A DNA stretch of 64,000 bases from Ulva prolifera (taxonomy: Eukaryota; Chlorophyta; Ulvophyceae; Ulvales; Ulvaceae). Under the pieces are notes generated by a model, which was not told where the DNA came from, made no database searches, and was given only the letters and a program-made list of their open reading frames with translations. Both the position numbers and the translations under genes were made by a program. Where the stretch lies: NCBI GenBank assembly GCA_023078555.1, contig CM041197.1:10102552-10166551 (forward strand), read 5' to 3'. Positions 55,401-58,637 of this stretch are shown here, one piece after another (positions within the stretch are counted from its first letter, which is position 1; every line of letters begins with the position of its first letter).

Positions 55401-57682
55401 TTTGCGTACCCAAATAAGTCCAGGCTGGCAACTGCTGCTGCTGCATCTTTCGCACACTGCACAGATCCCCAATCAACGAAACACAATTAGACAAGATGAT
55501 ACTGTAGCACGAACTCCCAGGGACGCGTCAAGGGCACTTACATCTGCTGTGAGACGCTTGCATCGCGACTCGCCTTTGGTAAAATCGCTGTCTTGAAGCA
55601 AAACGCTCTCAAAGATATCGAGTGCTGCCGCGGGCTTCAGCTCAATAACCTGCAAGTATAACTTGCTGCTGCATACATCCGCCAAGGTCATCATTCTGAA
55701 GCTGGGTGTATGGCTGGGTGTCACTTACCTTCAGCAAAGCCTTCGCCAGTTGTTCCTTAGCCTTAGCCTGTGACGCATTCAAAGCGGGCGGATTTCCCAT
55801 TATTCTAGTCGTTGGGAGAATGTTGGCGTAGAAGTAACTGTGGTATGTCGCAACATTAACTGATACTCGTTCACAAACTGGAGTTACATTGCGTCGGCAC
55901 AAGACTATGGTAAAATCAAGGCAGCGTAATGTTTTCCGGGGACGTCAAGGTCATCGGCAATTGGAACCTATGATCATTTCGGACCTGTCACATCAACAAG
56001 CCTCTGTCGGTCACGCGAACCTTTCGCAACGTGTGGCGAGGGGGGTACGGAGCTGCCTCGGAACTTACGAGTCGGAAGGCTGTGACAACAGCCTTGCGGA
56101 GGTCTCGTGAAGGCAGCCGCACAATACAGACGAGGTCGAGTAATGGCCCTGGCTCCGTGTCATCCATGGCGGAAATCCCATGCTAGGCAGACATTGCAAT
56201 AGACAACGTCGCCAGTGCACTGCTGATCAGACGTCCGTGCCGATCCGTCATGTCCAGCCCAGAATAAAGAACCTGTTGCTTGTTTGCGCACATGTGATTT
56301 TGCACATGTGTCTATGTTGACTTGGCCTGCCGGCATCACCTATACCATAGCATCTCTCAGCATTCAATCACACATTCATCCATGGGGCAATCCGACACCC
56401 CAGGCACCGAGGACAGAGCTGACGGCTTCACATCACATTGCAGGATGATCTACATCTCTACTGTCTGACAGCGGTCAGCGAGAAAGGGGACTTGGCACAG
56501 TTTCTGCATGCCACTGGCCGCACCTTGTCAGCTACACAGGCAGCCAAGTATGTCCTGCGCCCATTGCTCAGGGCTGTGTCTAGGATGCACGAGCGAGGTC
56601 TCATCCATCGCGACATCAAACCTGAGAACTTGCTGATGAACGAAGACAACACAGTCATGCTTTGTGACTTTGACCTGTCGATCGACGCAATGGAGACGGC
56701 ACCAGTATCAAAGGTGGGCTCCCAGGACACCACTGCAGATGTGCTGGAGCTGTTTCGTTCAGAGTCGAAAGTTTAGGCTGACCAGGCAGTGCAAAAGCAT
56801 CACTGGACGGCTTCACGGCCAGCACCGCCCATTGTGCCGTTTGACTCAGCATCGAGCTGCAATCCCAGCAGCCATGGACGCCGGTGGGTCTAGAACTATG
56901 CATACATCCGTGCAGCAAGGGATTACGCAAACGGCACGCTGTGTTACAAGGACAACGCCAGTGAGGGAGGTAGCATCGCAGGCCGCCATCAGGGGAACCA
57001 TGTGCACCAGTGTTGGGTCGCCGCGCCTGATCACATGTAACAATTCCAGATATTCAGATCTAATTGGAATCTCCAGGGCTGCCACCCAGAAATTCATTTC
57101 GGGGTGGTAGCCCTGGAAATTGTGCAAAGCGACCCAACACTGATGTGCACACATCCACCCAGCCACCGACACGCACCACAAACCAACACATCCCCGCACC
57201 CTGCACACTGTGTTGCTATCGTGTAGGCGCCTGCAGCTGTGTTGGGTCGTCGGGCCCAATCATGTGGAACAATTCTGAATATTCGGGTTCACTTTCTGGG
57301 TGGCAGCCCTGGAAATGCCGCACCGCGACCCAACACTGGCCTGCAGGTGGGTACACCTGACTACGTGGCTCCAGAGGTGCTCCAGCCTGGTGGCTACAAG
57401 CACCATGGCGGTGGCGCTCGGGCCAGCCACCGTCACAGCTCATACACGGACAAGGTCGACATATGGGCCATTGGGGTGCTGGCCTGGGAAGTCATGGCTT
57501 GGTCTGCCCCGTTTGCAGCCTCGACGGTGCAGGCTGTGCAGAAGAATGTGCTCCACAAACCGATCAAGGTGCCAGAAGCCTGGCCACAGGCTTACAGAGA
57601 GTTTGTCACGGCGTGCTTGGTTCGGGACCCACAACGCCGGCCACCCGCTGCTGACCTCCTCGAGTACCAGCTGTTCCAATAA
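52488..57682 (+). CDS. Divergent serine/threonine protein kinase
   Basis: Four exons: 52488..52679, 52891..53052, 56444..56713, 57347..57682; 319 residues, all introns phase 0. Glycine loop LIGRSGQGIRVLQ (52-64; the second Gly is Ser), ATP-binding lysine in LALKVY (77), IPFVLPLYSLLQDDLHLYCL, catalytic loop GLIHRDIKPENLL (Asp 175), DFD instead of DFG (193-195), GTPDYVAPEVL (APE 216-218), DIWAIGVLAWEVMAW, and RDPQRRPPAADLLEY at the end. The helix C glutamate is not obvious. The activation segment and C-lobe look like an Aurora/AGC-type kinase, but I cannot name a subfamily. Little flanks the domain. The 3.4-kb second intron contains a complete gene on the other strand (radial spoke head), and the third intron contains two MITEs. 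Confidence 0.9.
53585..55800 (-). CDS. Flagellar radial spoke head protein, RSP4/RSP6 family (nested gene)
   Basis: Component of the radial spoke head that signals to dynein arms in the axoneme. Seven exons, minus strand: 55800..55729, 55649..55542, 55456..55410, 55337..55277, 55196..54972, 54847..54459, 54008..53585; 441 residues, phases closing. It starts MGNPPALNASQAKAKEQLAK. Family landmarks: LKPAAALDIFES, CGVGLPKLEAYQVSLTMKQL followed by ALRFFGKFYTLNGQYYVFE, TGCNKYMYYCCTHPGGPLVL, VTPSQIRSARSIHKLLTGDL, FPGRERHYLRAQIARIAHAT, SWCHWAPHIKAMG (joined across the last intron), WPGAFAVSDGKTWANVYVGW, and an acidic poly-Glu tail. The gene lies entirely inside intron 2 of the plus-strand kinase gene. 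The donor of exon 4 was chosen by phase and gives an intron of about 80 bases. Its presence indicates a motile cell stage. Confidence 0.94.
57008..57142. mobile_element. hAT-like MITE in kinase intron (135 bp)
   Basis: Perfect 13-bp terminal inverted repeats, CAGTGTTGGGTCG and CGACCCAACACTG, with the 8-bp duplication ATGTGCAC at 57000-57007 and 57143-57150. An internal hairpin pairs CCAGGGCTGCCACCC with GGGGTGGTAGCCCTGG. CAG termini and an 8-bp duplication fit the hAT superfamily. No coding capacity. Confidence 0.95.
57237..57338. mobile_element. hAT-like MITE forming the 3' end of a kinase intron (102 bp)
   Basis: Terminal repeats CTGTGTTGGGTCG and CGACCCAACACTG (one mismatch). The 8-bp duplication GCCTGCAG flanks it at 57229-57236 and 57339-57346. 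The downstream duplication ends exactly at the kinase exon 4 border (exon starts 57347), so it supplies the AG acceptor. Confidence 0.95.
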
Positions 57683-58637
57683 ATCAGCAGCAGCTCAGGC
57701 GTGACGCTGCCTAGGCAGTGCCATCTGGTCACAGCTTGCGATTCGTGTAACGAGGATATGGCTCAGTAAGTGCAGATTTAATTCACTTTGCTAGGCCGTG
57801 TGTCGCAAGCTGCGCTTGGCGACCCCACTCACCGTGCGCACGTGGACATCAACATTGTTCTCACCCAGTTCCAATATGCAATTGTTGTCGTGGTTGTTAC
57901 CTTTAACGCACTGACCGATTGCATTGGAGACAATGGGCCTCAGGCTTTGTGCATGCATGTAGTCGATCGTTCATTGGGCCTCATCTTGGGCCTCATCATG
58001 CCATGGCTGCAACCGGTCAGAGGTCATAATTCCACCTGCAAATCCGGGACGCTGGCCTCGAGGCTCCGGCAATGCCCAATGCGCTGCCGTGGAGCCGAGG
58101 TGACACTCCGCGGTGAGCCATGTCCGCCCTTGCGATGCACTGGGTATCAAAGCTGATGCTGCAGCATGCGGCAAGGAAGGTTTCTCAAAGCTTCCCACTG
58201 CATGAATGCCATCAACAATCGCCGTTTCATTGCAGACCAGCGCGGGGTTGCCTCACAGCATACTTGTTAGGGGTGCCGTTCAGGAATCAGACCTACCTGC
58301 TCGGAATTGTTCTATGTGATCGGGCTCGATTACCCATATGTGCACTGACTGCGGAGTCAGGCCTTGCACACCGCACGTGTGGGTCAGTGGTGGGGACAGG
58401 GCATGAGCCCAGGGCACGTGGAGGAGCCCAATTAATTTTTCCTCTCAGTAGGAGGCTGCGTGTGTGAACTTGCACGGTATGGGGGCGGGGGCTGGTGGTT
58501 TACGCGCAGGGGGGCGTGAGTGAGCCAGCTGATTCAAATGGTACTACCATTTAGTATCCGCCAATATTAATAGTATCCGCCAATTAATTCCAACACCAAT
58601 ATTGGTATGTCAAGTATAATAAATCTGGTTTTACTGA

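Follow-up and report, generated by a model that had tools for sequence, protein, structure and literature searches.

The window analyzed here, a stretch of 64,000 nucleotides of the Ulva prolifera genome, contains a kinase gene in which the intron preceding the last exon carries two copies, A and B, of one MITE family (Table 1). A single reading frame joins exon 3 to the last exon across AAG/GTGGGC...GCCTGCAG/GTGGGT (the slash marks the junction), and this continuity of the protein places the putative kinase acceptor at 57346. The donor lies 515 bp 5' of the first GCCTGCAG duplicate. The original prediction for this locus was that a 102-bp element and its 8-bp target duplication stand flush with a kinase exon, and this was confirmed: the two GCCTGCAG octamers around copy B are identical and the exon starts directly behind the second one. 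The upstream octamer thus presents an identical acceptor 110 nt before the downstream one. The left end of copy B begins with CTGTG. The best-matching kinase paralog without the element presents only 39% identity, which is too distant for comparison.

Table 1. Features of the kinase locus (positions in the window) and the seven genes in which a copy stands flush with a homologous exon.
Feature	Position	Strand	Basis and remarks
Kinase exon 3 (HRDIKPEN...DFDLS), upstream of the intron	56444..56713	+	Pfam Pkinase 1.9e-16, profile 72-148
Predicted kinase intron, 633 bp, GTGGGC...GCAG, containing MITE copies A and B	56714..57346	+	Protein continuity
Copy A target duplication, left, ATGTGCAC	57000..57007	+	
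MITE copy A, 135 bp, same family as copy B	57008..57142	+	Internal fold-back
Copy A target duplication, right, ATGTGCAC	57143..57150	+	
Copy B target duplication, upstream copy, GCCTGCAG (putative displaced old acceptor)	57229..57236	+	Sequence
MITE copy B, hAT-like, 102 bp	57237..57338	+	Dissection and genome similarity search
Copy B left terminal inverted repeat, CTGTGTTGGGTCG	57237..57249	+	One mismatch to family end
Copy B right terminal inverted repeat, CGACCCAACACTG on the plus strand	57326..57338	-	
Copy B target duplication, downstream copy, GCCTGCAG (putative acceptor adjoining the last exon)	57339..57346	+	Sequence; frame across the junction
Last kinase exon with stop (VGTPDYVAPEVL...)	57347..57682	+	Pfam Pkinase 1e-14, profile 158-263
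L001, kinase			Homology from residue 1
L157, prolyl-tRNA synthetase			From residue 1; PDB 3.5e-37; duplicates with one mismatch
L165, NCA2			From residue 3; 1.8e-15; 103-bp element; duplicates with two mismatches
L163, Branch transferase			From residue 4; 4.4e-16; no match in PDB
L144, aldo/keto reductase			From residue 5 in Pfam, 4 in PDB; 1.9e-10
L151, urea amidolyase			From residue 9; PDB 9.8e-14; no match in Pfam; 103-bp element
L003, NFX1-type helicase, AAA_12			From residue 9 in Pfam (1.8e-16), 5 in PDB (NFX1-type zinc finger protein 1)

Copy A, which the original prediction did not mention, contains an internal inverted duplication that folds back, and it shares with copy B a 27-nt stretch with 93% complementarity. 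The predicted RNA fold of positions 56990-57360 forms a separate hairpin for each copy (z -6.8 for the whole stretch), and the palindromic duplicates lengthen the predicted stem of copy B. Rfam gave no match anywhere in the 64-kb window. We also observed by eye, at about 58290-58345, a minus-strand piece resembling the interior of the MITE, with no recognizable ends or duplication.

The 13-base end of the family (CAGTGTTGGGTCG) has 570 exact occurrences (283 + 287) in the 88.9-Mb genome, relative to 4 for a reversed control pattern; these exact ends are partly non-independent, as one element may yield two of them and some loci are duplicated segments. A similarity search with copy B returned 757 first-look candidates, and at least 40 further places, a lower bound, were scored at 80-91% identity to copy B in its own genome. 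From 118 loci we dissected 84 distinct copies, accepting flanking octamers with at most two mismatches; 39 of these loci gave no new copy and some of them show an already counted copy from its other end. Most copies (58 of 84) are exactly 102 bp long. Their flanking octamers were identical in 42 cases and differed by one base in 26 and by two bases in 16, the copies having been chosen for such octamers. When the octamers were moved 9-21 bases outward as a control, at most two mismatches were found in 3 of 332 comparisons. Given the excess of exact ends over the control pattern and of octamer matches over the shifted control, copy B and its duplication are not the product of chance.

The family presents the properties of hAT elements, which have short inverted ends beginning with CA.TG and a target consensus of nTnnnnAn. 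The family end is of the CA.TG type and an 8-bp target duplication was found in the 84 dissected copies. Among the 68 copies with duplicates differing by at most one base, the target octamer is near-palindromic, about STGYRCAS, and its symmetrized matrix shows T at position 2 and A at position 7 (0.69 each) with mostly C or G at both ends. The target preference is therefore hAT-like. We identified 16 matches to the hAT dimerization domain in the genome; the six on C1 were compared with the exact ends listed there and none lies within 18 kb of one, so that this comparison on C1 revealed no autonomous element sharing the ends of the family. Two other observations concern the family. A 530-bp stretch (L138:456-985) with the same kind of ends and the duplication CTGTGCAG is possibly a longer relative of the MITE, and the loci L063 (C1) and L158 (C4) share an identical flank GCGGCAGGTCCT behind CTGTGCAG, apparently a duplicated segment carrying the element.

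Judged by its letters, the target preference STGYRCAS resembles the splice acceptor TGCAG/G. When the 68 octamers were oriented as the window copy, AG closed 27 of them, CT opened 22 and both were found in 11. Behind the exact ends, the octamer is closed by AG in 168 of 570 cases. The base following these AG-closed octamers was G in 71, C in 55 and A or T in 42 of the 168 cases, relative to a window background after AG of 26.7% for G and 35.4% for C. This represents an excess of about 26 for G (P = 9.4e-6); against this, only 18 of the 49 duplicates closed by AG in the first sample had G as the next base. The octamers closed by AC (n = 141) were followed by C in 36 cases and by G in 36 cases, both at background (24.5% and 24.7%), and the frequency of G differed between AG-closed and AC-closed octamers (P = 0.003). 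Since the AC-closed ends are at background, G is not simply favored beside any octamer. The striking count is only the conditional one, G given AG: over all ends, the 71 of 570 with AG/G are slightly above the 62 expected from the target logo. The donor-like pattern N6AC/C presented no excess (36 of 141), but this says little because only one or two donor cases were expected. The original prediction had set a tie to splice sites against insertions spread evenly through introns and intergenic DNA, and on this point the outcome is mixed: the acceptor position is over-represented among AG-closed ends, but 402 of the 570 ends present no AG there.

Fifty of the 71 AG/G ends were examined, of which L174 and L175 proved to be the same as others, leaving 48 distinct ends. 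Frames that open at the duplicate were searched in Pfam, and some of them also against PDB sequences. We found that 7 of the 48 ends are flush with a homologous exon, with similarity beginning at residue 1-9 (Table 1); where it begins a few residues in, placing the start of the exon at the duplicate is the most economical interpretation rather than proof. In five of the seven genes, the two duplicates do not differ. In the first sample of 84 copies, just two were flush by homology: the helicase and the window kinase, the latter having served as the query. In the helicase gene, both flanking exons were recognized: AAA_11 is matched up to profile position 254 of 257 upstream and AAA_12 from profile position 1 downstream. 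Its intron of 509 bp presents the same geometry as in the kinase, with the donor 391 bp 5' of the first duplicate. The donor was located in these two genes only. In the five others, inspection by eye of 150-153 bp of upstream sequence revealed no exon, and Pfam matched none of four open frames taken from three of these loci.

Other copies lie near exons in a different layout. A homologous exon (sulfate permease) is present at L022 and is not flush, and exons lie about 80 bp or more from the copy at L015, L016 and L135, where a motif search placed SRCR in the first two (2 of 3 members) and FGGY_C in the third. Pfam was run on 620 of the 658 flanking reading frames and gave few matches; the distribution of exon distances for ordinary copies is incomplete. 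Among the families found near copies and not placed were GMC oxidoreductase, DUF4246, anticodon-binding, TPM, Band_7 and two kinases. One AG/G end (L035, EamA) was dropped as a flush case, the domain fitting by eye an acceptor 90 bp further down. Four others (L145, L166, L162 and L121) present coding-like flush frames and were rejected, as Pfam matched none of them and PDB gave no match for L166 and E = 0.012 for L145. Of the eleven flush candidates, 9 are in sense and 2 in antisense orientation, a proportion similar to the 40 to 21 of the remaining AG ends.

Some further loci show partial layouts. L113 presents an exact right end on the minus strand (near 492-501), with no recognizable left end or duplication, beside a frame resembling NOL10/ENP2 (PDB 1.5e-11); a possible exon start is at GCGCAG/GAC, 7 bp past the octamer, but uncertain as the similarity also covers the preceding codon. 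At L110 and L031 the octamer GTGCAGAG is followed by T and a coding-like frame without a Pfam match, and the acceptor could lie within the duplicate (GTGCAG/AG).

Codon usage was scored at the same ends using a model whose training set comprised 21 kinase exons and left out the window kinase. Scores above 4 were observed for 10 of 48 AG/G ends, 0 of 33 AC ends, 0 of 18 AG/C ends, 3 of 7 AG/A or T ends and 3 of 64 others (AG/G versus AC: P = 0.0035; Fisher test). A rank test gave P = 0.013, and P = 0.16 after removal of the seven homology cases, so the codon scores contribute little independent evidence. As exon finders, codon-usage models were abandoned as too weak: the window kinase scores below zero, that is, as non-coding, and a self-trained model drifted toward GC-rich third positions.

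We then estimated how many acceptor insertions the target motif would yield. The weight of the target matrix over background is about 25-fold for the octamer NNNTGCAG and about 11-fold for NNNNNCAG; the acceptor consensus was assumed, and five acceptors outside the counted cases gave weights from 0.6 to 255. We assumed 70,000 introns, a number borrowed from a different genome, that of Ulva compressa, for which 69,134 coding introns are given in PMC9266709. With these values, 0.2 acceptor insertions are expected at random among the 570 ends and 5-6 with the 25-fold weight, and a general preference for introns could lift the expectation to about 13. The AG/G signature implies 26 or more acceptor cases, and the motif-only expectation is lower. 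These results suggest that the likeness of the target motif to the acceptor probably explains part of the recurrence, leaving a rough two- to five-fold gap beyond the motif. Because this gap rests on borrowed numbers, we do not claim targeting.

The gap could reflect an attraction to acceptors or a retention there beyond the motif, a reading that we hold as a minority possibility. Insertion might be directed toward regions undergoing transcription or splicing, or copies sitting at acceptors might survive better, being harmless or even good 3' splice sites. An excess of two to five times the motif expectation and the flat donor side speak for it, but the expectation uses the intron number of another alga and an assumed acceptor consensus, a general intron bias would close much of the gap, and the absence of donor cases is uninformative when one or two are expected. 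The orientation of the flush candidates differs little from what the remaining AG ends show and does not favor it either. We consider somewhat more doubtful still the view that the integration site of this family is in effect the spliceosomal acceptor, to a degree exceeding the motif, with CGACCCAACACTG and the 8-bp duplicate forming a portable 3' splice site. If true, intron ends would have been swapped for transposon ends genome-wide with the protein untouched.

For the kinase itself, it is very likely that a non-autonomous hAT-type element inserted at the 3' end of an existing intron and duplicated its acceptor, which represents intron growth and not intron gain. The 8-bp target was the last eight bases of the intron, and its duplication kept an acceptor in front of the element while placing a second, identical one directly against the exon, as the two octamers show. 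The intron would thereby have been enlarged by 110 nt (102 + 8) with the exon start kept, and the coding sequence would be unchanged provided that splicing uses the downstream AG, as the open frame suggests. The old branch region would now be separated from the downstream acceptor by more than 110 nt and by another AG, and a branch point and tract may be supplied by the element end CGACCCAACACTG or brought near by the predicted hairpin of the element. The claim that the target duplication re-created the acceptor on the exon side is borne out by the sequence, and the layout recurs in six other genes.

Alternatively, the insertion may have damaged the kinase, the upstream AG being used, the element retained and the gene failing. 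Downstream of the old branch region, the AG met first is likely that of the upstream duplicate, and its use would add 110 nt to the kinase message, shift the frame and lead to a stop; over all seven genes, use of the upstream AG would shift the frame in five, the frame staying open in L151 and L165, which carry 103-bp elements. We find this unlikely, given that the downstream frame of the kinase is intact and that the same arrangement is present in six other conserved genes. However, five of the seven genes carry identical duplicates, so the insertions may be young and the intact frames prove little against damage. It is far less plausible that copy B is a pure coincidence, one insertion among hundreds without any recurrent tie to acceptors: the many exact ends without AG at the duplicate and the two flush cases among the first 84 copies would fit, but the frequency of G behind AG with its flat AC control and the flush layout in seven different genes do not.

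PMC9860276 defines an introner as an intron that arises when an element inserts into an exon and that shows similarity close to each of its splice sites, and the screen described there demands similarity near both intron ends, to exclude secondary insertions; some families co-opt their 3' site from the sequence at the place of insertion (Fig. 2C legend of PMC9860276). The original prediction had likened the kinase locus to this geometry, which is not supported, and had added that the element extended an intron or entered an older one, which is supported. The 102-bp element does not span the intron of 633 bp in the kinase, nor does the element in the helicase span the intron of 509 bp, and the anatomy of both genes speaks against the creation of an intron by exon insertion. 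An origin of the intron from the element itself, after entry into an exon, is hardly credible: a target duplication at the acceptor is also seen in the families co-opting their 3' site (PMC9860276), but the donor precedes the first duplicate by 515 bp (kinase) or 391 bp (helicase), the spliced element with one duplicate would measure 110 nt instead of 633, and in the five other cases no exon was recognized in the 150-153 bp upstream and the donors were not located there.

Growth of an older intron at its acceptor, as we propose, would offer a DNA transposon a way into the region of an intron under the tightest constraint while leaving the protein as it was, because the splice signal displaced by the element is restored by its target duplication. 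Such a case sets intron growth apart from intron gain, and screens asking for similarity at both intron ends, as that of PMC9860276, would pass over this class. The seven genes constitute natural replicates of the choice of the spliceosome between two like acceptors about 110 nt apart. Our literature search, which covered open-licence papers, found no paper on acceptor-flush MITEs.

Relative to known systems, this family resembles hAT-type MITEs in its 8-bp duplication, its short inverted ends starting with CAGTG, its length of about 100 bp, its symmetric target (T at position 2, A at position 7), and its hundreds of exact ends. It differs from them in that we identified no autonomous element sharing its ends and that some copies end flush with exons. 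The maize elements Ds and Ds1 are likewise of the Ac/Ds type, produce an 8-bp duplication and affect the splicing of host genes (PMC5432752); Ds1 has its own donors and acceptors near its ends, whereas here the putative acceptor is duplicated host sequence. Finally, the introners of Aureococcus, Micromonas, Chrysochromulina and others share with this family one respect only, namely that the insertion site or duplication of a DNA transposon supplies a splice site (PMC9860276). In contrast to introners, which make a whole intron in an exon according to the same source, this family appears to enlarge an older intron at its 3' end only.
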